64,000 nt of DNA from Pedobacter boryungensis (lineage in GTDB: Bacteria; Bacteroidota; Bacteroidia; Sphingobacteriales; Sphingobacteriaceae): assembly GCF_013204825.1 (NCBI RefSeq), contig NZ_JABMKV010000001.1:558001-622000 (forward strand). The letters are read 5' to 3'. Each line of letters opens with the position of its first letter. Position 1 is the stretch's first letter. Position numbers and translations under genes: made by a program. Positions 26,038-55,023 of the stretch are shown here, one piece after another. Below the pieces are notes generated by a model. That model saw only the letters and a program-made list of their open reading frames with translations, was not told the origin of the DNA and made no database searches.

Positions 26038-27213
26038 TTACTGATTCACAATAGCATTTTTGGTGTTCGAAAATGTATTGCCTGAAATTTTATTATCGAA
26101 AGGAGCTACATCTTGCATTACGCGAGAAGGATATCTCACTGTATCAAATTTTCCAGTCCAGTCGGCATTTTTGCTATCGCCGACTAAAATTCCTGTGTTG
26201 GCATTGGAAATTTGATTGTTGGTAATTGTAGAATTGCTGGCTGCGATATAAAATCCTGTTTCTTCTTTTCCTTTAGCCATGCCGTACATTAATCTGATGG
26301 CGGTTTTAATGTTGTTGATTTTGTTATTTGTAATTATATGACCAGTACCATTGATTCGAATACCGCCAGTGCCACCTTCAAAAACATTCTCTGAAATAAT
26401 ACAATCGTGCCCGCCACGCATCACTAACTCACCATCACATGCTTCGAAATAATTCTTTAGGTAGCTGTTACGGCTACTTTTATTGCTGATCACCTCATTT
26501 TCTCCATCGCAATGAACAAAGCGATTAGCACGTACGATTGAATTGGCTTCTTTTGTACCTAATAAAATAGGGTCTTGACCAATTTGAATACATTCACCTC
26601 CATTGCCATTGCTCCAGCTTACTTTATTTTTATTGGTGAACACATTGTTTTCAATCAAGGTTTTTTGCGGACAACTGTCTTTAGTTATTTTAACTTGTAC
26701 ATCTTGGTTGTCTACGTTAGCATTAAACGTACAACCATCCACTTGATTTGCAGTGCCATTGCCAGAGATAATGACTAATGGCATGAATTGCCCTTTCACC
26801 ACATTGGCTACAAATCTGCAGTCGTTTAGTCTGCAATTGCTGGTATTTTTAAACTCTACTAATATACCATTTGCGCCATTCGCTTTGAGTAGGGTACAAG
26901 CATTAAAAGTAATGCCGCTTAGCGTGGTAAACTCACCAGTTAATTTAAATAATGTTTGGTTAACTTCCCCATTGAATATCACTTTTCCGGCAGTTTCTGC
27001 GCTAACGACCACAGGTTTTGATTTAGTTCCTTTAGTTGGAATTTCCAAACTCCAATTACTGTAAGTACCATTGGCAATTATGATATGGTCTCCAGGAACA
27101 ATTTTAGGAAGGATGGCTTTGAATTCTTGTTCGGATTTTACGATATAAGTACTTGCCATACTGGCTTTAGTTATAAAAAGTAGAACGAGAAGTGGTAACA
27201 TTAGTTTTTTCAT
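26038..27213 (-). CDS. Polysaccharide lyase family 6 (alginate / chondroitin lyase-like)
   Basis: 391 residues with a signal peptide (cut near ASMA, 20). The protein is a right-handed parallel beta-helix rich in asparagine ladders ('ITNNKINN', 'ITNNQISN'). The PL6 signature 'ENEVISNKSSRNSYLKNYFE' provides K245 as candidate base, and 'GELVMRGGHD' provides R266 as candidate acid. Family members cleave alginate (mannuronate or mixed blocks) or dermatan/chondroitin by beta-elimination. It is encoded opposite to the large utilization operon and starts 114 bp from the membrane regulator gene, so it probably belongs to the same regulon. At 391 residues it is a single-domain member. Confidence 0.87.
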   Translation of the reverse strand: MKKLMLPLLVLLFITKASMASTYIVKSEQEFKAILPKIVPGDHIIIANGTYSNWSLEIPTKGTKSKPVVVSAETAGKVIFNGEVNQTLFKLTGEFTTLSGITFNACTLLKANGANGILVEFKNTSNCRLNDCRFVANVVKGQFMPLVIISGNGTANQVDGCTFNANVDNQDVQVKITKDSCPQKTLIENNVFTNKNKVSWSNGNGGECIQIGQDPILLGTKEANSIVRANRFVHCDGENEVISNKSSRNSYLKNYFEACDGELVMRGGHDCIISENVFEGGTGGIRINGTGHIITNNKINNIKTAIRLMYGMAKGKEETGFYIAASNSTITNNQISNANTGILVGDSKNADWTGKFDTVRYPSRVMQDVAPFDNKISGNTFSNTKNAIVNQ

Positions 27214-27327: not shown

Positions 27328-29253
27328 ATGATGTTAAAAGCATTAATTAAAGCTGGTATTTTATTTTTATTTCTAATTCAAACGAGTCAACTGCATGCGC
27401 AGCAAACGGTCGAATTAAGTGATGTTTCTAAAGAACATTTTTTTGTAAATAAAGAAATTGTGTGTTTAGAAGATCCTAGTGGTAAACTTACTATTAATGA
27501 TGTAAGCAATGCAGCTTATGCCAATAAATTTATCCCAAATAAGAATTATTATCCAAAAAATTACAATCGTTCGTCGGCGTACTGGTATCGTATAAAAGTA
27601 AAGTTTACTAAAGACCTTGGTCATTCGGCTATATTTGAATTTTTTGATCAGATTACAGACCATATCGAATCTTATTTACCAGATGAATCTGGCCGGTATG
27701 TGAAGAGTGTAGCTGGTGCTGATTTAACCTTTACCGAACGCTCATTTCATCATAAAAACTTTGAGTTTTTAATTAACGATACAAAAAAAGGAGAGTACTA
27801 CTATTATTTTAGGGTAAAGTCTAAAGATCAAGTAAATGTTATCATTGTATTTAGAACAGTAGAACGTTTTATTGGTTATGCGCTCTCGGAGTACATTGTA
27901 TTTGGCTTCTTCTATGGGATGATTGTGATTTTTAGTTTTCATAATCTCTTAATGTATCTTGCTGTAAGAAGGAGACAGTACCTTTTTTATATTCTGTATA
28001 TTTTAAGTGTGGGTTTGTATGAGATGTCTACAGATGGCATTGCATTTCAATATTTGTGGCCAAATCATCCTGTATGGAATGAATATGCGTATGGAGTAGC
28101 CTTATTCTTTTTGAGTTCTTTTGGGTTAATCTTTACCAAGGAGCTGTTGCATGTAAAAATTAAAGCACCAATAATTAACACTGCAATTAATGTATTATTG
28201 GTTGTTCGCTTCTTGTTTTTCTTAAGCTGTTTATTTTATAATCCAGACTGGTTTAAGTATAAATATTTAGAATTCATTCCCCTATCATTGTGTTTCTCTA
28301 CAGGTATTTACATCTGGTGGAAGAAGAAATATGGACCAGCTCGGTTCTTTGTATTGGGTTATTCTTTCTTGTTCCTGGGTTTTATCATTAAAATCGTTCA
28401 TATTTTAGGCTGGTCAAGGCTTTTTATTGGGAATGTAATTGGGTATTACAGTTTAAGTTTCGGGTTTTTGTTAGAAATGGTTTTCCTTTCCTTTGCTATT
28501 GGCGACCAGGTGCGCATTTTACGACGTAAGAGGGAGACTGCACGAAAACAAATCATGAAGCAAATGCAAGTGAATGCGGAATTAAAAGATAGCATTAACA
28601 GAGATTTGGAAATTAAAGTGGAAGAACGTACAAAAGAAGTACAACTTAAGTCTAAAGAACTACAAGAACAAAATATAACTATCGAACATCAGAATGAGGA
28701 ATTGTTAGTCATTAACTCTTTATTAGCGCAACAGGCGGAAGAAATTTCGAGGATGAATATCCTGCTGGAAAAAGATAATATCACCTTAAAAACAAATATT
28801 GAAAAAGTAACGGACGCCCGTTTAAATGCAACTGACCTTGATTTTGATGAATTTAGTTTAAAATACCCAGATCGTGATTCGTGTTATAAGTTTTTAGCAG
28901 ACATGAAATGGGAGCATGGTTATGCCTGTATTAAATGCAAGAATACCAGTTATTGTAATGGTAAAGTGCCATTTAACCGTAGGTGTACAAAGTGTGCTTA
29001 CGAAGAATCGGTATTGCACCAAACCATTTTCGAAAACAACCGCATCCCTATTAATAAGGCATTCTACTTAGTTTACTTAATGTACAACCACAAAGGTGCT
29101 ATTTCTTCTCATAAACTGTCTGAAAAGCTGGGGATACGTCAAAGTACCTGCTGGACCTACGCTTCTAAAATTAAAAAAGTAATGGATGAGCGTAAAAAAG
29201 ATTTGAAAGGTGTGGGCAAATCTGGCTGGAGTAAACTCATTTTAGAGAAATAA
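27328..29253 (+). CDS. 7TMR-DISM sensor fused to IS1595-type zinc ribbon and HTH: putative PUL regulator
   Basis: 641 residues. A signal peptide (about 1-25) is followed by an extracytoplasmic 7TMR-DISMED2-like domain (about 30-175, 'SAYWYRIKVKF', 'YYYYFRVKSKDQ'). Seven membrane segments lie at about 185-400 (7TMR-DISM 7TM). A long coiled coil covers about 405-505. The C-terminus (about 512-625) is like the start of IS1595-family transposases: 'YPDRDSCYKFLADMKWEHGY', a zinc ribbon with C534-x2-C537 and C553-x2-C556, 'LHQTIFENNRIPINKAF', and the helix-turn-helix 'SSHKLSEKLGIRQSTCWTYA'. The DDE nuclease is absent. The protein probably senses an outer signal and binds DNA while in the inner membrane. 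It sits between the PL6 gene and the first susC, with a likely operator downstream. Domains well supported; regulatory role inferred. Confidence 0.82.
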   Translation: MMLKALIKAGILFLFLIQTSQLHAQQTVELSDVSKEHFFVNKEIVCLEDPSGKLTINDVSNAAYANKFIPNKNYYPKNYNRSSAYWYRIKVKFTKDLGHSAIFEFFDQITDHIESYLPDESGRYVKSVAGADLTFTERSFHHKNFEFLINDTKKGEYYYYFRVKSKDQVNVIIVFRTVERFIGYALSEYIVFGFFYGMIVIFSFHNLLMYLAVRRRQYLFYILYILSVGLYEMSTDGIAFQYLWPNHPVWNEYAYGVALFFLSSFGLIFTKELLHVKIKAPIINTAINVLLVVRFLFFLSCLFYNPDWFKYKYLEFIPLSLCFSTGIYIWWKKKYGPARFFVLGYSFLFLGFIIKIVHILGWSRLFIGNVIGYYSLSFGFLLEMVFLSFAIGDQVRILRRKRETARKQIMKQMQVNAELKDSINRDLEIKVEERTKEVQLKSKELQEQNITIEHQNEELLVINSLLAQQAEEISRMNILLEKDNITLKTNIEKVTDARLNATDLDFDEFSLKYPDRDSCYKFLADMKWEHGYACIKCKNTSYCNGKVPFNRRCTKCAYEESVLHQTIFENNRIPINKAFYLVYLMYNHKGAISSHKLSEKLGIRQSTCWTYASKIKKVMDERKKDLKGVGKSGWSKLILEK

Positions 29254-29320
29254 GTACTAATAAATACCTTCTCATAGCTCTAAACAGCGATTGTTGAAAA
29301 AAATTACTGGTTTTTTTCAA

Positions 29321-29339
29321 TGCGCATCAAGCGTATCAA
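29321..29339 (+). promoter_or_regulatory. Putative operator box 1 of susC promoter
   Basis: TGCGCATCAAGCGTATCAA, identical to box 2 located 79 bp downstream. It contains two tandem 9-mers, GCGCATCAA and GCGTATCAA, that differ at one base. Lies in the non-coding gap between the regulator gene and susC. A short TTTTTTTCAA run precedes it. Confidence 0.65.
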
Positions 29340-29399
29340 TCCATAAATGTATTGTTTGATAATCTTACACAAAATCAGTGAGTTAGTGATTTGTCTTAG

Positions 29400-29418
29400 T
29401 GCGCATCAAGCGTATCAA
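29400..29418 (+). promoter_or_regulatory. Putative operator box 2 of susC promoter
   Basis: Second perfect copy of TGCGCATCAAGCGTATCAA. It ends 46 bp upstream of the TTTG element of the susC promoter, a normal place for an activator site. The 79-bp offset between boxes is about 7.5 helical turns. Confidence 0.65.
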
Positions 29419-29464
29419 ATTTATTATAACTTATTAAATATCAGCTATTTATGACAATTATTTA

Positions 29465-29497
29465 TTTGTAATTCTGAATAGTATTGCTCTATATTTA
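29465..29497 (+). promoter_or_regulatory. Bacteroidota-type promoter for first susC
   Basis: TTTG (29465-29468), 21-nt spacer, TATATTTA (29490-29497). This matches the Bacteroides consensus TTTG-N19-21-TAnnTTTG at all but the last base. Transcription would begin near 29503 and leave a leader of about 45 nt before ATG 29548. Confidence 0.6.
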
Positions 29498-29547
29498 CCT
29501 CACCAAATATTTTGGTCATTACTAAAATCAAACCAATTGTAAACTGT

Positions 29548-32500
29548 ATGAGGAAAATTCTACTAAAAAGAATTTTGCGGAAAATTTCTATAACACTACT
29601 CTGGTGTTCTATTCTGCAAATTAATGCTTCGACTACTTACGCAAAAAGTAGTACAACAATCAATTATTCAACACTAAACACAAATTTTCGAACACACGGC
29701 ACTTTAAACAACACTACATTAGCTTCTTTTGCTGATGTTTCTGGCGTTGTAAAAGATGCAAGCGGCTTGCCAATTCCAGGTGTAGGCGTAAAAGTGAAAG
29801 GAACACAAAATGCAATAAGCACAGACGGAGAGGGTAGGTTTACTTTAAGAAATGTAGCGGTGGGTGCGGTATTAGAGTTTACCAGCATCGGCATGAAATC
29901 GCAAGAAGTTGTTTACAACGGACAGGCGAGTATTCAAGTTACTTTGCAAGAAGATTCTAAAGGTCTAAACGAAGTTATTGTAACTGCTTATGGGGGATCA
30001 CAAAAAAGATCGAGTGTAACAGCTGCTATTTCTCAAATTAGTGCAAGTGAGGTAATGAAATCTCCAACCCCAAATGCAACAAATGCATTAATTGGTAAGT
30101 TGCCAGGTTTAATTGCAATACAAACTAGCGGTCAGCCTGGAGCTGATGCTTCTTTACTTCGAGTACGTGGTATTTCTACCTTAAATGGTGCGAATTCTAG
30201 TGCTATTGTAGTAGTAGATGGTATCGAACGCCCTAGTTTTTCAGATGTAGATCCAAACGAAATTGAGACGGTAACGATTCTGAAAGATGCAGCTTCAACA
30301 GCAGTATATGGTTTAAAAGGTGCAAACGGTGTAATTGTAATTACAACTAAACAAGGTAAAATTGGTAAACCAAGAGTTACTTACACTGGTAATTATGCCG
30401 CACAAACTTATACAGGATTAGCTATTGGTTTGCCTGCTTATGAGAACGCAAAATTGCTAAATCAAGCTTATATAAATGATAATGCTGTGGCTATTGCCAA
30501 TGGTACTTTTAAACCACCATTTTCCGATGATGCTATTCAAAAATTTGCTGATCATTCAGATCCAATTGGTTATCCTGATGTGCAATGGTTTGATTTTTTA
30601 ACTAAAAAGTATTATTCTCAAACACAGCACAACATCCAAATTAATGGGGGTACTAAAATAGCGAAGTACTTTGTTTCGGCAGGTTATTCTTTCCAGGATG
30701 GTATTTTCAAAAAGTTCCCATCACCTTATGGTATCAATACCGTACCAAATTATAATAGATACAACTTCCGTTCGAACGTTGATTTAACATTGAATAAAGA
30801 TTTCACAGTTGGTATTAAATTGGGCGGTCGTTTTGCTACACGTTATCAGCCTTCAGGTTTATTATCTTCTTCAGCATTTTCTTATGATACGATTGAAGGG
30901 ATGATTTCTCGTATTTTGCAAGTACCGGCCTATGCTTATCCGGTTACCTTGCCAGATGGTAGAATTACCGCAAACCCTAACGTAGGTACAAACATTTGGA
31001 ATCCTTATGCAGTACTCACACGCTTTGGAACACGTAATGATGATACAAATACAATAGAGAGTACATTTAATGCTAACTATAAATTAGATTTCATTACGAA
31101 AGGGTTAGCTTTTAAAGGGAACTTCGCGTATGATTCTTACTATTTGAACGTTGAAAGAAGAAATGCAAACTGGGCAGCGTATGTATATAATCCACAAACA
31201 GGAACTGCAACTTTATCTGGCGATACCAGAAATCGTGATGAGCCTTTAGGTGCTATTCAAGATGGTGGTGTAACTACAGGAACTACAACTACCAATTTAC
31301 AAGCAGGTTTTACTTATGCAAGAGTATTTGGTAAACATAACATTAGTGCATTAGCATTGGGAACTCGCCAATTGGTTAGAGGTGTAGGTACTACTACTTT
31401 TACCGCTCCTCCAAGAGCAGCACAAGGTGTAGTTGGAAATGTTGATTATAACTACGATGACCGTTACTTTATCGGGGCAAGTGCAACGTATAATGGATCG
31501 GAAAACTTTGCTGATGGATTGAGATATGGATTTTTCCCAGCATTCTCGGCGGGTTATACCTTATCTAATGAGCATTTTTGGAAGAAAAATAATATTGTAA
31601 GCTATTTGAAATTTAGAGGAAGTTATGGTTTAGTTGGTAACGATCAAGGTATTGGGCGTTTCTTATTCTTAACTTCATATAATCCTACTGGCCCAACAGT
31701 TCCATTTGGTAATCCATTAGCTATTACCAATTGGCCGACCATAAATTTACCAGATGCTAGCTTAGGTAATGCAGAATTGACTTGGGAAACAGGTACCAAA
31801 AGAAATATTGGTATGGAAGCTCGTTTCCTTAAAGATCAATTAAAATTAACTGTAGACCTTTTTGACGAAACACGTAAAGATATTTTATTAGATCCATTAA
31901 GTGGTTCGGCATTGTTCGGTCACGTTTATCCAAAATTGAATAGAGGTGTGGTGTATAACAAAGGTTATGAAGTAGAGTTAGATTACCAAGGTAAAATTGG
32001 CAACGTAACTTTAGGAATTAATGGACAAGTAGGTTATGCAAAGAATAGAATTGTAGAAAATGATGAGCCAGATGGCTTACCTAAAGCTCAAATTAGAAAA
32101 GGAACTTCGGTAGGACAATTTTTTGGGTATGTAAATGACGGATTCTACACTTCAGCAGCTGATATCGCAGCTTCACCTAAACAACAAGGATTTAATCCAA
32201 TTCCTGGAGATTTAAAATTCAAAGATTTAGACGGTGATGGTATAATTACAACTTTAGATCAACAAGCGATTGGCTATACAAGCAATCCAGAGTACATCTA
32301 CAGTTTTACGCCTCGTTTCAGCTACAAAGCTTTCAGTTTATCTGTAATGTTTCAAGGAGCAGCTCATATCAGTTCAAATGTAATTTTGAGCGAGCAGAAC
32401 AACGGTCAGCAGATGTATGAATTTATGCTAAACTCATGGACACCTACTACTGCAGCTACCGCGACTTGGCCAGCATTACACTCAAGAGGAACTGCCTCAC

Positions 32501-32775
32501 TAAACTATTCCAATAATGATTTTACACTTCAAAATGCAGCTTATTTGAAGATTAGAAACGTAGAAATGTCTTATAATTTGCCTAAGTCTTGGATGGAATC
32601 ATTAAAGATAGCAAGTGCAAGAGTGTATTTAAATGGTCAGAACTTGTATACATGGACTAAGTTTAAGATGTATGTAGATCCAGAAAATTTAAACGTGGTA
32701 AATCAGGCTTTCCCATTACAAGCACTTTACCCAAGTTCGAGAGTTTATAATATCGGTTTACAAGTTAATTTTTAA
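29548..32775 (+). CDS. SusC/RagA family TonB-dependent outer membrane transporter (first pair)
   Basis: 1075 residues from ATG 29548. A TTG 36 nt upstream is in frame but would put it at the transcription start. A long signal (about 1-33) is followed by a carboxypeptidase-D-like domain (about 60-140, 'GVVKDASGLPIPGVGVKVKG'), the plug ('VVVDGIERPSFSDVDPNEIE', 'ILKDAASTAVYGLKGANGVI') and a 22-strand barrel ending in a terminal F ('YNIGLQVNF'). It imports glycan oligosaccharides through the outer membrane with its SusD partner, which starts 2 nt downstream. The promoter and boxes upstream indicate it heads the operon. Confidence 0.95.
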   Translation: MRKILLKRILRKISITLLWCSILQINASTTYAKSSTTINYSTLNTNFRTHGTLNNTTLASFADVSGVVKDASGLPIPGVGVKVKGTQNAISTDGEGRFTLRNVAVGAVLEFTSIGMKSQEVVYNGQASIQVTLQEDSKGLNEVIVTAYGGSQKRSSVTAAISQISASEVMKSPTPNATNALIGKLPGLIAIQTSGQPGADASLLRVRGISTLNGANSSAIVVVDGIERPSFSDVDPNEIETVTILKDAASTAVYGLKGANGVIVITTKQGKIGKPRVTYTGNYAAQTYTGLAIGLPAYENAKLLNQAYINDNAVAIANGTFKPPFSDDAIQKFADHSDPIGYPDVQWFDFLTKKYYSQTQHNIQINGGTKIAKYFVSAGYSFQDGIFKKFPSPYGINTVPNYNRYNFRSNVDLTLNKDFTVGIKLGGRFATRYQPSGLLSSSAFSYDTIEGMISRILQVPAYAYPVTLPDGRITANPNVGTNIWNPYAVLTRFGTRNDDTNTIESTFNANYKLDFITKGLAFKGNFAYDSYYLNVERRNANWAAYVYNPQTGTATLSGDTRNRDEPLGAIQDGGVTTGTTTTNLQAGFTYARVFGKHNISALALGTRQLVRGVGTTTFTAPPRAAQGVVGNVDYNYDDRYFIGASATYNGSENFADGLRYGFFPAFSAGYTLSNEHFWKKNNIVSYLKFRGSYGLVGNDQGIGRFLFLTSYNPTGPTVPFGNPLAITNWPTINLPDASLGNAELTWETGTKRNIGMEARFLKDQLKLTVDLFDETRKDILLDPLSGSALFGHVYPKLNRGVVYNKGYEVELDYQGKIGNVTLGINGQVGYAKNRIVENDEPDGLPKAQIRKGTSVGQFFGYVNDGFYTSAADIAASPKQQGFNPIPGDLKFKDLDGDGIITTLDQQAIGYTSNPEYIYSFTPRFSYKAFSLSVMFQGAAHISSNVILSEQNNGQQMYEFMLNSWTPTTAATATWPALHSRGTASLNYSNNDFTLQNAAYLKIRNVEMSYNLPKSWMESLKIASARVYLNGQNLYTWTKFKMYVDPENLNVVNQAFPLQALYPSSRVYNIGLQVNF

Positions 32776-32777
32776 AA

Positions 32778-34517
32778 ATGATGAGAAACTATAAAATATA
32801 TACAGCCGTTGTTTTACTAACGCTCTGTTTTGTTTCCTGCAAAAAAGATTTCTTGGAAAGAACACCAGGAACTCCATTAAGCGAGGATGAAATTTTTGCA
32901 GATCCTGCTTTGGCAGCCAAATTTGCAGACAATGCCTATAACTATACTATTACCAAATATGTTCGTTTCAACGATCACCGCGGTTGCCTAGCGCAAGCAT
33001 CTGATGAAGCCGTTTCTGGAAACTCTGAAGGTACCGTAACTTCATTAAATCGTGGTTTGTATCATGAGCACTCTACACAGGCTAGTTTAAACGATATCGG
33101 TGATATCTGGAAAAGAATGTATGCCTGTATTGCGATTAACAATAAGGTACTTGCAAAATTACCTACTATACCACCTGCACCAAATGCAACGGTTTCAGTT
33201 TTCGATCCTAAAAGGGTAGAAGGTGAAATGCGTTTCCTTCGTGCTATGTCATATTTCGAATTAACGAAAAGATTTGGTGGTGTTCCAATTGTAGATAAAG
33301 TATATGAAGTAAATGATGATATCAATTTACCACGTTCATCATTTGATCAGGTAACTAAATTTATTTTGAGCGATTTAGAGATTGCGATTAATAAGCTTGG
33401 GGAAGAAGGAACTTATAGTGCATCTAACTATGGTAGACCAACTGTTGGTGCTGCACAAGCCTTAAAAGCTCGTGTTTTGTTATATGCAGCAAGCCCTTTA
33501 AATAATCCATCTAGTGATAAAGCTAAATGGAAAGCAGCAGCTGATGCGGCATTGGTATTAATGGATGGTAGATATGCCTTACAAACAACTTATGGCGATA
33601 TCTTAAATGTACCTAACTCACCAGAGTACATCATGATTAAAATCAAAGGTAATACACCTTTAGCTGGTGAAATGATGCAGGATTTCTCGATGTCGCCAGG
33701 TTCTGGAGGTGCGCAAGGGCAAATGAACCCTACACAAAACCATGTTGACATGTATGAAATGGCAAATGGTAAAGCAATTACCGATCCTACTTCAGGTTAT
33801 GACCCAACAAAACCTTATGTGGGTAGAGAACCACGTTTTTATAACAACATTATTTATAACGATTTGCCTTGGCAAGGTGGTAAAATAGAAATGTGGGCTT
33901 TCCCAACGCTAGATGCACAAGGTAAACCAATTACTTTATATGGTAAAGATTGGAACCCAGGAAACATCACCTATACTGCTACACGTTACTATTGCAAAAA
34001 ATACTGGCCAGAAGTATATAGAACTGTTGGTGGAAGTACAACACTATTGAACTATATCTATTTCCGTTACGCTGAAGTATTATTGAATTATGCAGAAGCC
34101 CAAAATGAGGCAGATTATAAAGTTGATGACGCAACCGTATATAAAGCATTGGATGATATTCGTAAACGTGCTGGTATTCAATTAGGAGCAAATGGCCATT
34201 ACGGATTAAAATCTGGAATGACACAACTAGAGATGCGTGACGCGATTAGACATGAACGTGCAATTGAACTAGCGTTTGAAGATCACCGTTGGTATGATAT
34301 TATGCGTTGGAAAATAGGTTCAACTACCATTGGCGTACCTATGAAAGGAATGGATGTGGTTAAAAACACAAACGGAACCTTTACATATACACCGTTTGTT
34401 TTGGGAACTAATTTCCAAAAAACATGGGATGAGAAACAAAACCTTTACCCAATTCCAAGAACGGAAATCTATAAAAGTAAAGGAGTGCTTACTCAAAACC
34501 CAGGTTGGGAGAATTAG
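32778..34517 (+). CDS. SusD/RagB family glycan-binding lipoprotein (first pair)
   Basis: 579 residues. A lipoprotein signal 'VVLLTLCFVSCKK' places the lipidated cysteine near residue 21. The N-terminal 'FLERTPGTPLSEDEIF' and the TPR-like helices with 'EMRFLRAMSYFELTKRFGGVP', and the C-terminal 'AIRHERAIELAFEDHRWYDIMRW' and 'LYPIPRTEI', are all SusD hallmarks. It is surface-exposed, caps the preceding SusC barrel and binds the glycan. It starts 2 nt after the susC stop and is therefore co-transcribed. The MM start could be at either methionine. Confidence 0.95.
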   Translation: MMRNYKIYTAVVLLTLCFVSCKKDFLERTPGTPLSEDEIFADPALAAKFADNAYNYTITKYVRFNDHRGCLAQASDEAVSGNSEGTVTSLNRGLYHEHSTQASLNDIGDIWKRMYACIAINNKVLAKLPTIPPAPNATVSVFDPKRVEGEMRFLRAMSYFELTKRFGGVPIVDKVYEVNDDINLPRSSFDQVTKFILSDLEIAINKLGEEGTYSASNYGRPTVGAAQALKARVLLYAASPLNNPSSDKAKWKAAADAALVLMDGRYALQTTYGDILNVPNSPEYIMIKIKGNTPLAGEMMQDFSMSPGSGGAQGQMNPTQNHVDMYEMANGKAITDPTSGYDPTKPYVGREPRFYNNIIYNDLPWQGGKIEMWAFPTLDAQGKPITLYGKDWNPGNITYTATRYYCKKYWPEVYRTVGGSTTLLNYIYFRYAEVLLNYAEAQNEADYKVDDATVYKALDDIRKRAGIQLGANGHYGLKSGMTQLEMRDAIRHERAIELAFEDHRWYDIMRWKIGSTTIGVPMKGMDVVKNTNGTFTYTPFVLGTNFQKTWDEKQNLYPIPRTEIYKSKGVLTQNPGWEN

Positions 34518-34551: not shown

Positions 34552-37500
34552 ATGAAATTATCAAAATCAAAATATATAGTATGCCTCCTGTTTTTATGGA
34601 TGGCTGTACTAAACGTTTACGGGCAAAAGCCTGATGAACAAATTACAGTAAAAGGACGGGTAATCGATCAGGATAAAAAACCATTGCCTGGTGTATCTAT
34701 CTCTATACAAGAAGATAAAAAGAATACAACTGTGAATACCAATGCAAATGGAGAATATACTATTGAAACAACTACTAGTGATGTTTTAGTATTTAAAATG
34801 GTTGGATATGGCACTACATTTAAACCGGCAGGAGAAATAAATGATGGTGTTGTTACGTTGACTAAATCGTTAATTGATGCAGGCGATGAGGATTTAGTAT
34901 ACATTCCTTTTGGTGTTAGAAAGAAAAGAGAGGTGACGGCCACCATTAGTACTATTTCTGCGCTTAACTTGCCTCAAATACCTTCATCTTCTTTAACTAA
35001 TGTATTTACAGGAAGACTTCCAGGATTATCAATTTATCCAAGTGGTTCTCAACAACCTGGTTACGATGTATCTAGTTTTTTAATTCGTGGTCGCTCGTCT
35101 TACAATAGTAATCAAGAACCTTTAGTTTTAGTAGATGGAATAGAGCGTAGTTTCGCTGCAATGGATTTAGGCGAGATAGAAAGTGTAAGTGTGTTAAAAG
35201 ATGCTGCAACTTTAGCTTGGTATGGCATGTATGCTGCAAATGGTGTTATCTATGTAAAAACTAGACGTGGTAGTGCAACATCAACTAAAGTTACTTTTGA
35301 TGCTCAAGCGGGTTTACAAGCGCCATTGCAAATTGCTCAACCTTTAGATTCATATACTTATGCTACTTTGTATAATGAAGCTTCAATTAATAGTGGAGGA
35401 ACAGCAGTTTATAGTCAAGCTGCATTACAAGCCTATCAGGATGGCTCTGATCCCTATAAATATCCAAACAATAATTTTGTTAGAGATTTTACCAAAAATG
35501 TAGCGCCAACACAACGTTATGTAGCTACTGTAACTGGCGGTAACGCATTTTTGAAGTATTATACCTTATTAAGCGCTTATCAACAAGGAGGTTTTTATAA
35601 AGGTGGTCATAATGAAACTTATGACGCCAATACTAATTTTAACAGATATAACTTAAGAACAAATCTTGATTTACACGTAAACAAAAATCTAGATGTTGCC
35701 TTAGATATTGGTGGTAGAATTACCAACTTAACTTTCCCTAATCAAGGAACTGCAGCGTTTTTGAATGCTGTATATTCTACACCACCAAATGCTTTTCCAG
35801 TGCTTAATCCGGATGGTTCTTATGGGGGAACTTCAATTTTCCCAGCGAGTAATCCAAAGGCGATGTTAGAAGCTAGAGGAGCAAGTACAGATTTAGTACG
35901 TAACATGATAGCCACAATTAGTGCCAGACAAAAAATGGATGGCATTTTAAAAGGGTTGACTGCAGAAGTATTTTATGCATATGATATTGCTGGATCATAC
36001 CGTTCTGGTTTTACACAGACTTATGCAACCTTCGAACCCAATGGAAGTGGAGGATATCTTCCAGGATATGGAACAGCATCAAAAGTTGATTATCTAGGAA
36101 ATTCATTTTCAGGTAACGTTAAGAAAAGTGAATTTTGGGCTGGTCTAGATTACAATAGAACTTTTGGAAACCATGACATCAAGTTTAGTTCAAGAGTTTC
36201 AAGACAAGTGTATTCTGTTTTTGGAAACTTAGATACCAAACGTGAAGGTATCTCAAACCGTTTAACCTATGGTTTTAAACAACGTTATTTTGTTGATTTA
36301 ACAGCTGGTTATTCAGGTTCAGAAAACTTTGCAGTAGGTCAGCGCTTTGGGTTTTTCCCTGCCGCATCTGCAGGTTGGATCATCTCTGATGAAGATTTCA
36401 TGAAAGGCTCAAGCTCATTTCTTGACCTGTTAAAAATTAGAGGTTCATACGGTTTAGTGGGCAACGATGCAATTGGAAATGCTAGAAGGTTTGCGTTTAA
36501 CGATTTCTTCTCTAGAAGTACAACTGGTTACACCTTTGGTACTGGTTATACGGGCGTAAGTGGTACTGCACAATTGGCATTGGGTAATCCTTATTTAACA
36601 TGGGAAAAAGCATACAAAACAAGTGTTGGCTTTGATGCTAAACTATTTAAACAAGCTTTCTCTATTAGTGCTGATTATTTTTATGAAATTAGAAAAGACT
36701 TAGCAACAGGATCTCAATTACCAAGTACGTTAGGCCAATCTTTAGTTTATGTAAATGAGGGAGAAGCTTCTTATAAAGGATTTGAGACAGGTTTAAATTT
36801 CAATAAAAAGTTAGGTAATGTTGACTTAAATATTTTTGGAAATTACACTTATCAGAAAAGTAAAATCTTAAAAATAAATGAGGCGGCTAATTTACCGGCT
36901 TATCAAAAATCAGTGGGTCACCCAATTACAAGTGTGATCAGCCCTGCTGCAACAGCTAATACTGCTGCAGGTTATATCAGCAGCATGTATAAATCGATGG
37001 GGATTTTTCAATCTCAAGCAGAAATAGATGCAGCGCCAAAACAATTATTGTCTAAAGATGTGAAACCTGGAGATATTAGATATGTAGATCAAAATGGTGA
37101 TGGAATCATTAACGGTTTAGATATCGTAAAAACAGATTACAATTTTGTACCAAATTCTGTTTTTGGTCTTGGTGCATCAGTTGCAGTAAAAGGTTTTGAT
37201 TTAAATTTCTTATTTCAAGGAACTGTAGGTAGCTCGGTTACCATTAATCAATTGGTAAATGCTGGTAACTCAAATAATGGTTATTTAAATCAATTTAGTG
37301 TAGACAGATGGACACCAACCAATACTTCAGCTCCATATCCTAGGTTGTTAATTGCTGATCGTGGTAATAACACGGTAAACTCTGATTTCTGGATCCGCTC
37401 TAGTGATTATGTGAGATTGAAAAATGTAGAGTTAGGTTATTCGCTATCAGATCGTTTTGTTAAAAAGTTAAAATTATCTCAGTTGAGATTTTACGTGAGT

Positions 37501-37629
37501 GGTTTAAACCTATTGACATTTAGCAAATTGAACGATTTAAATATTGATCCAGAATTACCGGAGTCTGGTTTTAACTCCTCATATCCGTACATGAAAATTT
37601 ATTCATTCGGTGTTAATTTGAAATTTTAA
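34552..37629 (+). CDS. SusC/RagA family TonB-dependent transporter (second pair)
   Basis: 1025 residues with signal peptide (cut near YGQ, 25). Carboxypeptidase-D-like domain at about 30-105 ('KGRVIDQDKKPLPGVSISIQE'-type, split), plug with 'VLVDGIERSFAAMDLGEIES' and 'VLKDAATLAWYGMYAANGVI', and a barrel ending 'FGVNLKF'. It is only moderately similar to the first SusC, so the pairs probably take different oligomers or parts of one complex glycan. It begins 34 nt after the first SusD and has no promoter of its own that I can recognise. Confidence 0.95.
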   Translation: MKLSKSKYIVCLLFLWMAVLNVYGQKPDEQITVKGRVIDQDKKPLPGVSISIQEDKKNTTVNTNANGEYTIETTTSDVLVFKMVGYGTTFKPAGEINDGVVTLTKSLIDAGDEDLVYIPFGVRKKREVTATISTISALNLPQIPSSSLTNVFTGRLPGLSIYPSGSQQPGYDVSSFLIRGRSSYNSNQEPLVLVDGIERSFAAMDLGEIESVSVLKDAATLAWYGMYAANGVIYVKTRRGSATSTKVTFDAQAGLQAPLQIAQPLDSYTYATLYNEASINSGGTAVYSQAALQAYQDGSDPYKYPNNNFVRDFTKNVAPTQRYVATVTGGNAFLKYYTLLSAYQQGGFYKGGHNETYDANTNFNRYNLRTNLDLHVNKNLDVALDIGGRITNLTFPNQGTAAFLNAVYSTPPNAFPVLNPDGSYGGTSIFPASNPKAMLEARGASTDLVRNMIATISARQKMDGILKGLTAEVFYAYDIAGSYRSGFTQTYATFEPNGSGGYLPGYGTASKVDYLGNSFSGNVKKSEFWAGLDYNRTFGNHDIKFSSRVSRQVYSVFGNLDTKREGISNRLTYGFKQRYFVDLTAGYSGSENFAVGQRFGFFPAASAGWIISDEDFMKGSSSFLDLLKIRGSYGLVGNDAIGNARRFAFNDFFSRSTTGYTFGTGYTGVSGTAQLALGNPYLTWEKAYKTSVGFDAKLFKQAFSISADYFYEIRKDLATGSQLPSTLGQSLVYVNEGEASYKGFETGLNFNKKLGNVDLNIFGNYTYQKSKILKINEAANLPAYQKSVGHPITSVISPAATANTAAGYISSMYKSMGIFQSQAEIDAAPKQLLSKDVKPGDIRYVDQNGDGIINGLDIVKTDYNFVPNSVFGLGASVAVKGFDLNFLFQGTVGSSVTINQLVNAGNSNNGYLNQFSVDRWTPTNTSAPYPRLLIADRGNNTVNSDFWIRSSDYVRLKNVELGYSLSDRFVKKLKLSQLRFYVSGLNLLTFSKLNDLNIDPELPESGFNSSYPYMKIYSFGVNLKF

Positions 37630-37631
37630 TT

Positions 37632-39389
37632 ATGATGAAGATGAAAAAATATATATGCTATATATTCCTTGCGACGATGTTGATCTCGCAAGGCTGTGAA
37701 AAAGATAGCTTTCTTCAAGATGGGTCGTTTAGTGGCGATAATAACGTTACTGAAGCTCAACTTTGGGCAAACCCAGATTATGCTAGGAACTTTTTAAATA
37801 ATATTTATGCGACACTTTCTGATCGATATAATTTAGATGGAGATGGCGGTATTTTAGCATCAGGTACTGATGAAGCTGTAAATTCTAACGCTAATGGCGG
37901 AATAAATGTTTTAACCAACGGCACCTGGAGTCCGGTAAAAACATTTGATGATGTTTATGCCAATATGTATTCGGGTATCCGTAAAGCGAATATGTTTATT
38001 GAGAAAGCACCAACAAGTCCATTTATTGTATTGGATGAGTTGTTACCAGCTAACGTTCCAGCTAATCAAACTTATGAATTGCAATTGGCACGTTTAGTTG
38101 GGCAAGCTTATTTCTTAAAAGCATTCTTTGAATTTGAGCTTCTGAAACGCTATGGCAGTTTTGTAATTGTAAATAAAACATTAACTGTGAATGATGAACT
38201 AGACGTACCTCGTAATTCATTTGATGAATGTGTTGCGCAAATTTCTAAGGATTGTGAAGAAGCAATTTCTAGATTGCCTTTGTCGCCATCAGAATGGAGA
38301 ACAACAGATCGTGGAAGAGCTACACAAACTGCTGCTATGGCATTAAAAGCACGTCTATTGCTATATGCAGCTAGCCCACAGTACAATCCAACTAATGATT
38401 TAACGAAATGGCAAGCAGCAGCTGATGCTGCCAAAAGAGTGATGGACACTGGTAAACACGGTATTTACAGTTCATATCCAAATATTTGGTTATGGAATAC
38501 AGCAGGTGCATTTAATAATGAAGTTATTTTTGCAACATCAGCAACAGCAACAGTTGCTATAGAGCAAAACAATGCGCCTGTAAGTTATGATGCAGCAAAT
38601 GGTCGTACGAACCCAACTCAAGAAATGGTTGATGCGTATGAAATGAAAACTACAGGAAGACCAATTACTGATGGAGCATCTGGCTACAGCGCAACTGCGC
38701 CTTATACCAATCGCGATCCTAGATTAGGGTTTTCAGTTTTATTTAATTCTGCTTCTGTGCAACCACTAGTTGCAGCTAATAACTTTAAAAGCAAACCTGT
38801 AGAAACTTTTGTTGGCGGTAAAGATGGATTAGGTTTAAACGTTAACGCGACCAAAACAGGTTATTACATGCGTAAATACCTAAGTGAAAGTGCATCATGG
38901 GCAGGTACAACAACAACCATCCGTAGACCATGGATTTTCTTCAGGTATGGAGAAGTATTGTTAAACTATGCAGAAGCCTTAAATGAAGCACAAGGAACAG
39001 CAGCATCAACACTTATTCTTAAAGCATTAAATGATATTAGAGCTAGAGGAGGTGTAGCTATGCCAGCCTTACAAACTACAAATCCGGCAGGCAATGGTTA
39101 TGTAGCTCTAAATCAAATCGAACTTCGTAAACGTATCCATAATGAACGTAGAGTAGAGTTAGCTTTTGAAGAGCACCGTTTCTTTGATGTTCGTCGTTGG
39201 AAAGAAGGAGAAACTACATTTAACGGTCCAGTAAGTGGAATGAGAATAGTTCCAACATCTGCTACAACATTTACCTATACCAAGTTTACTGTAGAAAACA
39301 GATCATTTACTGCTAAGAACTATTTATATCCAATATCTCAAAACGAATTAAATAGAGCAACTAAACTAGGTCAAAATACGGGATACTAA
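37632..39389 (+). CDS. SusD/RagB family glycan-binding lipoprotein (second pair)
   Basis: 585 residues. The signal ends in a lipobox 'LISQGC' (cysteine near 22). 'LARLVGQAYFLKAFFEFELLKRYG', 'FRYGEVLLNYAEALNEA' and 'RRVELAFEEHRFFDVRRWK' are typical SusD segments. It starts 2 nt after the second SusC and forms its outer lid. A hairpin follows its stop, separating the transport genes from the enzyme genes. Confidence 0.95.
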   Translation: MMKMKKYICYIFLATMLISQGCEKDSFLQDGSFSGDNNVTEAQLWANPDYARNFLNNIYATLSDRYNLDGDGGILASGTDEAVNSNANGGINVLTNGTWSPVKTFDDVYANMYSGIRKANMFIEKAPTSPFIVLDELLPANVPANQTYELQLARLVGQAYFLKAFFEFELLKRYGSFVIVNKTLTVNDELDVPRNSFDECVAQISKDCEEAISRLPLSPSEWRTTDRGRATQTAAMALKARLLLYAASPQYNPTNDLTKWQAAADAAKRVMDTGKHGIYSSYPNIWLWNTAGAFNNEVIFATSATATVAIEQNNAPVSYDAANGRTNPTQEMVDAYEMKTTGRPITDGASGYSATAPYTNRDPRLGFSVLFNSASVQPLVAANNFKSKPVETFVGGKDGLGLNVNATKTGYYMRKYLSESASWAGTTTTIRRPWIFFRYGEVLLNYAEALNEAQGTAASTLILKALNDIRARGGVAMPALQTTNPAGNGYVALNQIELRKRIHNERRVELAFEEHRFFDVRRWKEGETTFNGPVSGMRIVPTSATTFTYTKFTVENRSFTAKNYLYPISQNELNRATKLGQNTGY

Positions 39390-39471: not shown

Positions 39472-41301
39472 ATGTTAAAATTAAACTATAGACTACTTAT
39501 ACTTTGCCTTTCCTTATTATCCATTAGCGCTTACGCACAAGTTAGTTCTATACAAAATATCCAATCGAGGAAAATATTAAGTTTAAACGGTAAATGGAAT
39601 TACATTGTAGATCCTTACGAAAATGGATTTTATGATTATAGACACGACCCATTTGATCAATCTAAATCAGGTTCGGGTGGTTTTTATGATGATAAAGTAC
39701 AAAAGGATAAAACAGAATTGATTGAATATAATTTCGATTTATCTCCTCAAATGAATGTGCCAGGCGACTGGAACTCACAAGCTGAAAAATTAGAACTGTA
39801 CGAGGGAACGGTTTGGTTAAGACGCAAATTTACCACACAGCCAGAAAAAGATAAAAGATACTTCGTTTACTTCACTGCAGTAAATTATGAAGCCCACGTT
39901 TATTTAAATGGAAAAAAATTAGGTGTACACAAAGGTGGATTTACGCCTTTCCAATTTGAAGTTACCGGAAAATTAAAAGCTGGCGAAAACTCATTAGTTG
40001 TTAAAGCAGATAACACTAGAAAACCTGATGAAATTCCTACTATTAATACCGATTGGTGGAATTACGGGGGTATTACTCGTGATGTTTTCTTAACAGAATT
40101 ACCTCAGCATTTTATTAATGATTATAAATTGCAATTGGTAAAAGGAAGTACGAATACATTAAATTTCTCGGTTAAACTTGCAGATTCTACTGCTGGACAA
40201 AACATCACGGTATCAATTCCTGAGTTAAAACTTGAAAAAACCTTTACTACTAATGGTGAAGGTAAGGTTGATCAGCAATTTACATGGAACAAGATCAATT
40301 TATGGTCGCCAGAAAATCCAAAGTTATATGCAGTAACTATAAAAACTGCAACAGAAAATATACAAGATAAAATAGGTTTTAGAACGATAGCCGTTCAAGG
40401 AACAAATATTTTATTAAACGGAAAATCTGTCTTTTTAAGAGGGATTTCTATCCACGATGAAAACCCATTGTTAGCTGGAAGATTAAGATCCGAAGGTGAC
40501 ATGAGAATGTTATTGCAATGGGCAAAAGATATGAACTGTAACTATGTTCGTTTGGCTCATTATCCTCATAATGAAGAAATGGTGCGCTTGGCAGATGAAA
40601 TGGGTTTATTGGTTTGGGCAGAAGTTCCTGTGTATTGGACAATCTCTTGGACAAATCCTGCTACATATGCCAATGCAAAACAACAATTAACAGATTTAAT
40701 TGTGCGTGATAAAAATCGGGCAAGTGTGATCGTGTGGTCTATTGGGAATGAAACGCCTTTAAGCGAACCTCGTCATAAGTTCATGGGGAATTTGGCTGAA
40801 ACTGCTCGATCTTTAGATGATACAAGATTAGTAGCTGCGGCTTTGGAAGTTCACAGAGATGGTAAAACAATCATTCTAAATGATCCGCTAGGTGAGAAGA
40901 TAGATTTAGTAAGTTTTAACGAATATGCGGGTTGGTATTGGGGTGGAACTCCAAGTGAAATTACGAGCTATAATTTCGATATTAAATACAATAAACCAGT
41001 TGTCATTACCGAATTTGGTGGAGATGCTTTAGGTGGTTTTCATGCAGATGAAAATACAAGGTGGAGTGAGGAATATCAAGAAGCCTTATATAAAAACCAA
41101 CTTATTTTATTAGGTAAAATTAATGCCTTAAGAGGGATGACGCCTTGGATTTTAACAGATTTTAGATCGCCAAGGAGACAACATCCAGTTTATCAAAATT
41201 TCTGGAATCGCAAGGGTTTGATCTCTGAAACAGGTAAAAAGAAAAAGGCATTTTTTGTGCTTCGAGATTTCTATAATCAGATGCAAATCAACTACAAATA
41301 A
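39472..41301 (+). CDS. Glycoside hydrolase family 2, beta-glucuronidase-like
   Basis: 609 residues with signal peptide (cut near AYAQ). Sugar-binding jelly roll (about 30-215), Ig-like linker (215-310) and TIM barrel (310-609). Acid/base E427 lies in 'WSIGNETPL', nucleophile E514 in 'VITEFGGD'. A tyrosine/asparagine cluster 'FNEYAGWYWGG' and the motif N579-R-K581 ('FWNRKGL') follow. N-x-K at this place binds the uronic carboxylate in beta-glucuronidases, though it also occurs in other GH2 enzymes. Short length, lack of further domains and the uronate context favour glucuronidase. Periplasmic or secreted. Confidence 0.85.
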   Translation: MLKLNYRLLILCLSLLSISAYAQVSSIQNIQSRKILSLNGKWNYIVDPYENGFYDYRHDPFDQSKSGSGGFYDDKVQKDKTELIEYNFDLSPQMNVPGDWNSQAEKLELYEGTVWLRRKFTTQPEKDKRYFVYFTAVNYEAHVYLNGKKLGVHKGGFTPFQFEVTGKLKAGENSLVVKADNTRKPDEIPTINTDWWNYGGITRDVFLTELPQHFINDYKLQLVKGSTNTLNFSVKLADSTAGQNITVSIPELKLEKTFTTNGEGKVDQQFTWNKINLWSPENPKLYAVTIKTATENIQDKIGFRTIAVQGTNILLNGKSVFLRGISIHDENPLLAGRLRSEGDMRMLLQWAKDMNCNYVRLAHYPHNEEMVRLADEMGLLVWAEVPVYWTISWTNPATYANAKQQLTDLIVRDKNRASVIVWSIGNETPLSEPRHKFMGNLAETARSLDDTRLVAAALEVHRDGKTIILNDPLGEKIDLVSFNEYAGWYWGGTPSEITSYNFDIKYNKPVVITEFGGDALGGFHADENTRWSEEYQEALYKNQLILLGKINALRGMTPWILTDFRSPRRQHPVYQNFWNRKGLISETGKKKKAFFVLRDFYNQMQINYK

Positions 41302-41340
41302 CATTACAAATTTATTAAGAAGGTTTATTAGGCTTTTTCT

Positions 41341-44025
41341 ATGCTGTTAATTACAAAAAACAAAACTTATTCATTAAAAAGGCCTATTCTTTTATTGGTA
41401 TGTGCAGTCGTTAGTATGCTAAATGCTTTTGGACAGCTTAATGTTCGAAAAGTGATTAATATTAATCAGGGCTGGGCTTTTCACAAAGGAAATAGTACAA
41501 CGGTAACAAGGGTAAATGTCCCACATACGTGGAATGCGGTTGATGTGATGGACGATGAGCCTGGATATTACCGTGGTATTGGATGGTATAAGAAAAAATT
41601 AACGCTTAAACCCGAGTGGAAAACCAAAAAGCTTTCGCTCTATTTTGAAGGTGCCAATCAAGAAACGACAGTTTATCTAAATGGTAAAAAAGTGGGTAAT
41701 CACATTGGTGGATATACAGCCTTTACAATTCCTCTAAATGGTTTAAAATTTAATGGCACAGATGAAATTATAGTAAAAGTTGATAATAGTTTTAATGAGA
41801 ATATTGCCCCATTAACTGCTGATTTCACCTTTTTTGGTGGAATGTATCGTACAGTTTCTCTCGTGGTTTTAAATCCTATTCATTTTGAGGATGACCAATA
41901 TGCATCTAAAGGAGTATATGTACATGCCACTAATGTGTCTAAAACTGTTGCTGATGTAATTGTAAATGGCAATCTAATGAATTCCTCAGCCAATGCTGAT
42001 TTAACAATATTGACTACATTAACAGATGCGACTGGAAAAAAGATCAATGAGTCGAAAACAGCCATTCACTCTACTTTAAATAAAGCAATTCCTTTTACAG
42101 TTGCCCCCATAAAAGTTGATCATCCCATATTATGGTCGCCAGAAAGACCATATTTATATCAAGTTACAACACAATTGCTAAGCAAAAACGGTAGGGTGTT
42201 AGATGAAGTTAAATTACCTGTTGGGTTACGTTTTTTTAGTTTTGACGCTGAGAAAGGCTTTTTTTTAAATGGAATGCCTTATAAATTGATTGGAACAAGT
42301 CGTCACCAAGATTTTGCAGGAATGGGTAATGCCGTTCCATCTGCTTTGCAGGTAAAAGATGTAGAATTATTGAAAGATATGGGTGGTAACTTTTTGCGTG
42401 TGGCACATTATCCTCAAGACCAAGCTATTTTAGATGCATGTGATAGAATGGGTATTCTGGCCTCTGTAGAAATTCCCATTGTAAATGAAATCACGGAATC
42501 AGAGGGTTTTACTCGCAATTGCAAAAATATGCAAGTAGAAATGATCAAACAGAATTACAATCATCCCAGCATCATTATATGGGCATATATGAATGAGGTT
42601 TTGTTAAAAATGAAGTTTAATAATGAGCCTGAAAGAAAGTTAAAATACATTGCTAACGTTACAACTTTGGCGCAAGAACTGGAAGATTTAACTAGAGCAA
42701 CTGATCCAACTAGATATACAATGATGTCTAATCATGGTGATGTAAATGGATATATAAAAGCTGGTTTAGTGAAAATTCCAATGTTAGTGGGATGGAATTT
42801 ATATCAGGGTTGGTATGGAGGTAAGTCTGAAGATTTTGGACCGAACTTGGATAAAATACATCAACAAATACCTGATAAACCAATCCTAGTGACAGAATTT
42901 GGTGCGGATATAGATCCAAGAATACATTCTTTTCTGCCTGTCCGATTTGATAAGAGTTTAGAATATGGTATGCTTTATCATCAAATATATATTTCAGCTA
43001 TTTTAAAAAGACCTTTCGTGGCTGGTGCTGCGGTGTGGAATTTGGCAGATTTCAGTTCCGAAACTCGTGATGAAACGATGCCTCATATTAATAATAAAGG
43101 CTTACTAACATTAGATCGTCAGCCTAAAAACACGTATTATTTATACAAAGCCAATTTTCAAACGAAACCTTTTCTTAAAATAGGAGATGGCTCTTGGAAA
43201 TTACGAGGTGGTAATGCAACTTCAAATGAACAAACGCTAAGTCAACCTTTGCAAGTAATTAGTAATACCGATACAGTTGAACTATTTGTAAACGGCAAGA
43301 GTTTAGGTAAAAAAAGGGTAACAGAGTGTGTTACCAATTGGGATGCTCCATTTAAAAATGGTAAAAATGATATTAAAGCAGTTGCTGTAGCTGGTGGGAT
43401 AAAAATTGAAGATGCAGCAAGTATAAATTTTAATTTACAACCTCTAACATTTAATAGTAAAATACCATTTTCATCTATCAATATTATCTTAGGTAGCCAG
43501 AGACAATTTATTGACGATCAAAAACATGAAGTATGGTTGCCAAGTCAACCATATAAAACCGGTTCTTGGGGCAGTGTTGGTGGCGAAGCTTTCAAAATAA
43601 AAAATAGTGGACGTCAAAGTTATGGCTCTGATAAGAACATACGAGGAACTTTTAACGATCCGATCTACCAAACACAATTGATTGGCTTAGAGCGCTATCA
43701 ATTAGATTTGCCTAAAGGGAAATATGAAGTAATCATGCACTTCGCAGAGTTAATGGGAAATGGAATTCAATCATCTTTACCTTATAACTTAGATAGTTTA
43801 ATTGCAGTTAGTAAGGAAGTGCCACCTCAACGTATTTTTGATGTTTATTTAAATGATAAATTAGTTATCAAAAACATCAACTTAGCAGCGACTTATGGGG
43901 TAGCGAATAGTGTGCAGAAAAAGTTTGAGTGTAGTGTTGCTGATAATAAAGGCATACAAATTCTATTTAAAAGTATTAAAGGTAAAGCTGTTTTAAATGC
44001 TTTGCAGGTAAAGAAAATAAATTAA
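41341..44025 (+). CDS. Glycoside hydrolase family 2 with C-terminal malectin-like domain
   Basis: 894 residues with signal peptide (cut near AFGQ). GH2 jelly roll (about 45-185), Ig-like part, TIM barrel with acid/base E419 ('WAYMNEVLL') and nucleophile E519 ('LVTEFGAD'). The next segment (about 640-720) is a GH2-type Ig domain ('DTVELFVNGKSLGKKRV'). The last 150 residues hold a malectin-like carbohydrate-binding domain ('YEVIMHFAELMGNG', 'RIFDVYLNDKLVIKNINL'). Likely beta-galactosidase or related exo-enzyme; the precise sugar is not deducible. It lies 39 nt after the first GH2 gene. Confidence 0.88.
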   Translation: MLLITKNKTYSLKRPILLLVCAVVSMLNAFGQLNVRKVININQGWAFHKGNSTTVTRVNVPHTWNAVDVMDDEPGYYRGIGWYKKKLTLKPEWKTKKLSLYFEGANQETTVYLNGKKVGNHIGGYTAFTIPLNGLKFNGTDEIIVKVDNSFNENIAPLTADFTFFGGMYRTVSLVVLNPIHFEDDQYASKGVYVHATNVSKTVADVIVNGNLMNSSANADLTILTTLTDATGKKINESKTAIHSTLNKAIPFTVAPIKVDHPILWSPERPYLYQVTTQLLSKNGRVLDEVKLPVGLRFFSFDAEKGFFLNGMPYKLIGTSRHQDFAGMGNAVPSALQVKDVELLKDMGGNFLRVAHYPQDQAILDACDRMGILASVEIPIVNEITESEGFTRNCKNMQVEMIKQNYNHPSIIIWAYMNEVLLKMKFNNEPERKLKYIANVTTLAQELEDLTRATDPTRYTMMSNHGDVNGYIKAGLVKIPMLVGWNLYQGWYGGKSEDFGPNLDKIHQQIPDKPILVTEFGADIDPRIHSFLPVRFDKSLEYGMLYHQIYISAILKRPFVAGAAVWNLADFSSETRDETMPHINNKGLLTLDRQPKNTYYLYKANFQTKPFLKIGDGSWKLRGGNATSNEQTLSQPLQVISNTDTVELFVNGKSLGKKRVTECVTNWDAPFKNGKNDIKAVAVAGGIKIEDAASINFNLQPLTFNSKIPFSSINIILGSQRQFIDDQKHEVWLPSQPYKTGSWGSVGGEAFKIKNSGRQSYGSDKNIRGTFNDPIYQTQLIGLERYQLDLPKGKYEVIMHFAELMGNGIQSSLPYNLDSLIAVSKEVPPQRIFDVYLNDKLVIKNINLAATYGVANSVQKKFECSVADNKGIQILFKSIKGKAVLNALQVKKIN

Positions 44026-44044
44026 GCATTCGCAAATCGGAGCC

Positions 44045-45220: not shown

Positions 45221-45222
45221 TT

Positions 45223-46356: not shown

Positions 46357-46404
46357 ATTTACTTCAACAGATAAAAAGAGTGTTAAGACAAAAGAATTAA
46401 AATT

Positions 46405-48864: not shown

Positions 48865-48865
48865 A

Positions 48866-50026: not shown

Positions 50027-50057
50027 ACAGATAAAATTGAAAACAAAAACACAGTGT

Positions 50058-52657: not shown

Positions 52658-52695
52658 ATAAAGCTATTTATCGCCATGAATAAAAATAATCAGTG

Positions 52696-52747
52696 GTTGT
52701 AGTGTTTTTGATGTGGTTGCAAAAAGCAGTCACATCAACTATACAAC
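52696..52747 (+). terminator. Long imperfect hairpin before GH3 gene
   Basis: GTTGTA...TTGATGTG pairs with CACATCAA...TACAAC around a 15-nt loop, within the 132-bp gap after the GH-A gene. Weak downstream T content. It may end or attenuate the enzyme operon. Confidence 0.4.
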
Positions 52748-52789
52748 TATTTTAGCAAAGCATAACAGCATAAAAACATAACTATAAAA

Positions 52790-55012: not shown

Positions 55013-55023
55013 GTTAGTTAAAT

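Follow-up and report, generated by a model that had tools for sequence, protein, structure and literature searches.

PULs are regulated, among others, by SusR-like and hybrid two-component systems encoded next to SusCD genes, and regulators of the ToxR/CadC type are membrane-bound one-component proteins with one membrane helix. The window analysed here, a stretch of 64,000 nucleotides from Pedobacter boryungensis (contig NZ_JABMKV010000001.1, positions 558,001 to 622,000), encodes beside a PUL a 7TMR-DISM / zinc-ribbon-HTH sensor-regulator of 641 aa (27328..29253, + strand; an open ORF with an ATG start). From its anatomy, its homology, its linkage and the sites that lie next to its gene, we infer that the sensor is a one-component regulator that is tethered to the membrane and dedicated to activating transcription of the PUL beside it, with predicted DNA binding, activation and ligand, and we give this reading a probability of about 0.78. 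The original prediction had held that a transposase N-terminus was recruited as a membrane-tethered regulator of the PUL; homology and the linkage to SusCD support that proposal, and the candidate operator described below is regulatory evidence beyond it.

Anatomy of the sensor and its transposase-like C-terminus

The sensor, all of whose parts lie on the + strand, has a periplasmic 7TMR-DISMED2 domain (residues 43-175, 27454..27852; 94 bits) and a 7TMR-DISM_7TM domain (residues 188-394, 27889..28509; 142 bits), both well over the Pfam cut-offs, and this combination of a DISM extracellular domain with a DISM 7TM domain makes it a 7TMR-DISM receptor. In the AlphaFold2 model the first domain is built of beta strands and the second of seven helices, the last of which, TM7, continues as a long helix and then a coiled coil (residues 369-499, 28432..28824; helices at 369-459 and 471-499), followed by the ribbon strands and the HTH. 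Confidence is low from about residue 451, with pLDDT values of 41-49 in the blocks spanning 451-500, and the C-terminus modelled alone has a mean pLDDT of 86.8. Pfam, alignments and the C-terminal model place an IS1595-type zinc ribbon at residues 517-558 (28876..29001; Cys 534, 537, 553 and 556), and NCBIfam and the C-terminal model place an IS1595-type helix-turn-helix, without a DDE domain, at residues 571-628 (29038..29211). The outer domain, seven membrane segments and coiled coil foreseen in the original prediction were thus confirmed by Pfam and AlphaFold2, and profiles, alignments and tblastn did the same for its four-cysteine ribbon and HTH lacking a DDE domain. With sensor, membrane and DNA-binding parts in a single chain, the protein is by architecture alone a one-component membrane regulator, and Pfam searches up to E 1 gave no match to a histidine kinase, receiver or AraC domain.

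Taken singly, the C-terminus scores below the cut-offs of Zn_ribbon_IS1595 (residues 517-558; 17.7 bits, cut-off 25.4) and HTH_11 (15 bits, cut-off 25) in Pfam, and residues 571-628 align with positions 2-62 of the 215 in the NCBIfam IS1595 transposase profile at E 1.7e-8 (34.6 bits, cut-off 75). Because these single-sequence matches are sub-threshold, the homology rests on the family profile. A profile of 18 relatives (alignment A1) matches transposase-length frames elsewhere in the phylum at E values down to 1e-40, and with a transposase from genome G307 as query, frames of sensor length match at 45-53% identity across some 120 aa (47% for the window's sensor). Ribbon-HTH identity between transposases and sensors is 40-53%, and the four cysteines are invariant in 18/18 rows of A1 and in 41/41 rows of a second alignment (alignments A2, every second of 79 proteins, and A3, 43 of the 79, exclude L148). 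The sensor chain stops where the VEVDEFF of the transposases starts, i.e., before the first catalytic Asp, and tblastn with the DDE part of one transposase (E up to 1) found no DDE remnant in 53 loci. L085 and L086 have the same N-terminal ribbon-HTH and then a DDE-type domain; with the IS1595 transposase model L085 scores 161.9 bits and the G307 copy (L175) 74.7 bits, just below the cut-off.

In a midpoint-rooted tree of 99 distinct C-termini, built from few columns, with the named loci L088-L167 left out and L117 admitted to the input and dropped as a duplicate, the 64 sensors all group in one clade (support 99/93), together with one Reg_prop fusion and two short proteins; this clade adjoins the IS1595 transposases. 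The assignment of the C-terminus to the IS1595 ribbon and HTH therefore survived both the profile searches and the tree. The homology is evident, and the direction of descent, as read from the tree, would be from an IS1595 transposase to the sensor; a single capture of the transposase domain fits this short, midpoint-rooted tree. Among solved structures, no meaningful sequence match to the C-terminal alignment was found (best E 0.097), and Foldseek gave no match at E <= 0.001, only weak mixed matches that include some HTH regulators. Ribbon-HTH frames of 150-205 aa, in which a DDE domain would not fit, were also seen in L182, L184 and L191 and in phylum matches in G351, G366, G459, G174 and G315, mostly within one genus (f4/g29); they are possibly another capture or transposase fragments.

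Relatives of the sensor and their linkage to PULs

The 151 genomes of the window's family contain 55 full-length sensor copies, the window's included, where full-length denotes the 55 places fetched and 41 genomes count as sensor genomes. A named scan gave 288 related stretches, of which 80 were kept, mostly from Pedobacter, Mucilaginibacter and neighbouring genera, and the sensor in genome G125 is 87% identical to that of the window. In a phylum-wide draw of 395 genomes, the C-terminal profile has matches in 53; frames of sensor length (620-718 aa) occur in 11 of the 53, spread over four families, and the remaining matches are mostly transposase-length. Relatives with the same architecture occur in the Cytophagales genera Flammeovirga, Aureibacter and Persicobacter, where four annotated proteins of 597-620 aa carry all four cysteines. 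Their annotation reads simply "7TM diverse intracellular signaling domain-containing protein", and each of the four has genes for glycoside hydrolases, SusCD or sugar transport nearby. Genuine IS1595 copies are present in some of the group's genomes, which would suit the view that the C-terminus is a functionless piece of a transposon, fused recently and by chance. We find this view scarcely credible, as the ribbon cysteines do not vary in the 41 aligned rows, the architecture recurs in Cytophagales and DDE remnants are missing from the 53 loci.

Two cases of domain exchange bear on the recruitment of the ribbon-HTH as a regulatory part. In L083 the same receptor lies before SusCD (residues 12-512 are 41% identical) but has a LuxR-type HTH at its C-terminus (22.4 bits against GerE, cut-off 23.5). 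In Desertivirga arenae, a Reg_prop/Y_Y_Y sensor is joined to the same coiled coil and ribbon-HTH, with 57% identity there (L064:14896-17847, - strand; L117:247-3519, + strand). Because the output is swapped in L083 and the sensor in L064/L117, we argue from these sequences that the ribbon-HTH would be an exchangeable output module. A stand-alone 159-aa ribbon-HTH protein of the IS1595 type without a DDE domain was seen in L084 (7929-8408, - strand), where it lies at the end of a SusCD PUL and has GH88 and PL5-type genes as neighbours. Its presence in a PUL implies that the module can exist without a membrane part, which favours another possibility, namely that proteolysis frees the C-terminus of the sensor from the membrane to give a soluble regulator; we regard such release as unlikely and retain the membrane-tethered reading. 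In L106 of Pedobacter namyangjuensis (9563-10438, + strand) the frame that carries the ribbon-HTH has 291 aa and lacks the 7TM part, through a frameshift or as a true short form.

In the window, the sensor gene is followed on the same strand by a SusC-like TonB receptor (29512..32775, with an in-frame ATG at 29548), a SusD-like lipoprotein (32778..34517) and a second SusC/SusD pair (34552..39389). The PUL enzymes (39472..56377, + strand) comprise three GH2 proteins, GH18, a PL5-type alginate lyase, GH88, GH3 and UxuA, and among them lie a DUF5009/acyltransferase-like protein and one ORF without a Pfam match. A chondroitinase-B-type (PL6) gene is divergent from the sensor (26038..27213, - strand), and from PL5, PL6, GH88 and UxuA a uronate substrate of the PUL is plausible. 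Elsewhere in the window, a 3503-aa ORF is followed by a PorP/SprF-type protein (13156-24595), perhaps a large type IX-secreted protein and its partner, and beyond the PUL a chloramphenicol-acetyltransferase-fold gene is divergent from an AraC-type regulator (57679-59344, with the regulator at 58388-59344).

A SusC gene lies within 1.5 kb 3' on the same strand for 35 of the 55 sensors versus 0 of 40 DISM-histidine-kinase paralogues (p=5e-12), the latter having been picked by hand from high-scoring rows of the same genome draw, with a sensor not always in their genome. The 40 paralogues end in histidine-kinase ATPase motifs by eye. The other 20 sensors have no same-strand SusC within that distance; in one case a divergent SusC is present. 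Near the SusC-less sensors, 14 of 15 genes encode carbohydrate-active enzymes (9/10 in a first set and 5/5 in a second), these genes having been chosen by hand after the neighbourhoods were viewed and not always being the next gene; the exception is a trypsin/PDZ protease (L055). The tie to SusCD loci that had been claimed for the window's sensor thus holds in the family, with CAZyme loci in addition.

A candidate operator between sensor and SusC

Direct repeats of TAAAGCGTATCA occur between sensor and SusC, mostly 77-79 or 86-94 bp apart. In the window, the distal copy (TGCGCATCAAGCGTATCA) lies at 29320..29342 and the proximal copy (TGCGCATCAAGCGTATCA...AAATATCAGCTATTT), which starts 79 bp further on, at 29399..29450, both on the + strand. 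The pair is co-directional, ends about 15 bp before a Bacteroidota-type promoter and keeps recurring beside SusC proteins that are far apart in sequence (often about 30% identity). The core is present with at most 2 mismatches in 57 of 64 regions, and was not found at that threshold in seven (L171, L174, L176, L177 and L181, all f8/f9, and L081 and L164). An alignment was made of 31 of 58 regions, those with paired cores of at most 2 mismatches each, the duplicates L168 and L169 and the five f8/f9 sensors just named having been left out beforehand. In these 31 the proximal copy reads TGnnATTAAAGCGTATCAAAAT...TATAA...CTAATTATCAGTtATTT (38.9 bits over 52 bp), and the distal copy carries the first half of that motif. 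The copies are 77-79 bp apart in 11 of the regions and 86-94 bp apart in 20, a difference of about one helical turn; for L098 the spacing, taken as 88, could also be read as 79. In L044, two ORFs resembling an IS3-type transposase pair (10167-11614, - strand) stand between sensor and SusC, and the operator pair (11800, 11891) stays with SusC despite them.

The element TTTG ... TATATTTAC before SusC (29465..29498, + strand) resembles the Bacteroidota -33/-7 consensus, and we take it to be the probable promoter. After the proximal site, a -33-like TTTG/TTG[CT] is found at the expected place in 24 of the 31 rows and a -7-like TAnnTTT[AG] in 21, four other intervals giving 0 to 4 of 31 for the latter. 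The candidate operator sites leave the SusC promoter itself uncovered and stop a short way upstream of its -33-like element, and it is from their position alone that we read the sensor as an activator and not a repressor. An alternative is that the sensor represses through the repeats and releases them on sensing the glycan, for the sign of regulation is deduced from sequence alone. Sites that leave the promoter uncovered speak against this, as does their form, since spaced direct repeats are typical of activators; we therefore hold repression to be decidedly unlikely and keep to activation.

The strict operator pair occurs once in the window's 3.5-Mb genome, between sensor and SusC. Over the 151 genomes it has 37 matches versus 13 for a reversed control pattern, and it is present in 24/41 sensor genomes versus 7/110 others (p=3e-11), an enrichment that is partly circular because the pattern came from these same loci. 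In the sensor genomes, 19 of 29 strict pairs are within 500 bp of a sensor gene and 10 are not. In a stricter test, the matrix for each locus was trained only on sites of sensors with less than 70% C-terminal identity. The 52 sensor loci then gave 93 sites of at least 14 bits, of which 85 are intergenic; for 83 the gene that follows is co-directional and no more than 900 bp away. In 37 loci the top-scoring site is found 3' of the sensor at no more than 900 bp, and no site reached 14 bits in 8. Control loci, scored with the general matrix, have 3 sites of at least 14 bits in 370 kb, and at 15 bits that matrix finds 90 sites in the sensor loci (974 kb) versus 1 in the controls (370 kb).

Could the repeats instead belong to another factor, such as the AraC-type protein encoded beyond the PUL, with the sensor acting only in signalling or as a scaffold? 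The pairing of sensor and repeats is deduced from co-occurrence, which allows for this, but it is beside sensors that the sites are concentrated, with hardly any in DISM-kinase loci. The sites also follow the strand of the target: among sites near the sensor in the divergent loci L042, L114, L120 and L138, the strongest is on the strand of SusC in 4/4 cases (L120 has an additional weaker site of 13.0 bits on the opposite strand), and in the SusC-less loci L039, L040, L053, L057 and L063 sites stand before GH5, GH2 or GH30 genes. Moreover, loci with a swapped or diverged C-terminus have weak sites or none. L083, with its LuxR-type C-terminus, has no site of at least 10 bits, a comparison of one locus, and the f8 and f9 sensors have no operator site in the 3.4 kb examined, except for a 13.9-bit match in L171; the f2 sensor L170 has a site of 18.6 bits. 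A different factor is thus very improbable, and the sensor itself remains our candidate for binding the repeats. By eye, the intergenic regions of L174, L176 and L181, which follow diverged f8 sensors, have the element AGCAA[AT]CGATTTCGGA in common, and this is possibly the f8 sensors' own operator.

It is conceivable, if doubtful, that the operator derives from the termini of the ancestral transposon or mimics them, such that the captured domain brought its recognition site along. In the near-clade transposon L283, the end (AATAAGGCGTTTTAATATG) is similar to the operator core. As a set, near-clade ends are above background (p=0.0035) and far-clade ends are not (p=0.65), in a comparison of 11 elements whose ends were chosen by eye, the two ends of an element not being independent; the near/far split was made after the ends had been seen, and we take the comparison as a lead rather than a result. 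Only the two ends of L283, among eight near-clade ends, reach the top 5%, so the signal comes mainly from one element, and a further search for near-clade transposases returned only genomes already in the set. In L269, GCTAAAAATCAGTATCTTATG before the transposase gene has 20/21 letters in common, by eye, with the second half of the L032 operator. Should this origin be true, transposon ends would have been turned into a sugar-responsive promoter switch.

Proposed mode of action and relation to known regulators

By what route might a signal pass from the cell surface to the SusC promoter? In the activator reading, the periplasmic 7TMR-DISM domain would sense a glycan fragment, and the signal would pass through the seven helices and the coiled coil, which probably dimerises, to the ribbon-HTH module. 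The module would bind the two direct repeats found between the sensor gene and SusC, and the bound sensor would activate the SusC promoter from its position just upstream of the -33-like element.

A protein uniting 7TMR-DISM with an IS1595 ribbon-HTH is undescribed among the matches listed from the open-access literature searched, outside which most subscription journals lie, and the earlier remark that no functional description of such proteins was known agrees with those matches. The receptor and the DNA-binding module are each known; their union, the link to PULs and the candidate operator appear to be new within the open-access literature searched. If our reading is true, there is a class of Bacteroidota glycan regulators that annotation misses, and regulators have been built by joining a receptor to the DNA-binding domain of a transposase. 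With the candidate operator, regulon prediction and a direct binding test become possible, and the sensor family, together with the nearby transposase clade, provides a handle on how a transposase domain becomes a bacterial transcription factor.

Compared with known systems, the sensor has the extracellular and 7TM domains (PF07695/PF07696) in common with 7TMR-DISM receptors, whose outputs are histidine kinases in the 40 control paralogues and a LuxR-type HTH in L083, whereas the output of the window's sensor is a transposase ribbon-HTH. That ribbon and HTH are homologous to those of IS1595 transposases, but the sensor is without a DDE domain, is fused to a membrane receptor and is kept beside PULs. 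The Reg_prop/Y_Y_Y relative (L064/L117) has a different sensor on the same ribbon-HTH. As in SusR-like and hybrid two-component regulation of PULs, a local regulator stands beside SusCD, although here it has no kinase, receiver or AraC domain match. As in ToxR/CadC-type regulators, sensor, membrane part and DNA-binding domain are in one chain, but with seven helices instead of one, the opposite domain order and an unrelated DNA-binding domain.
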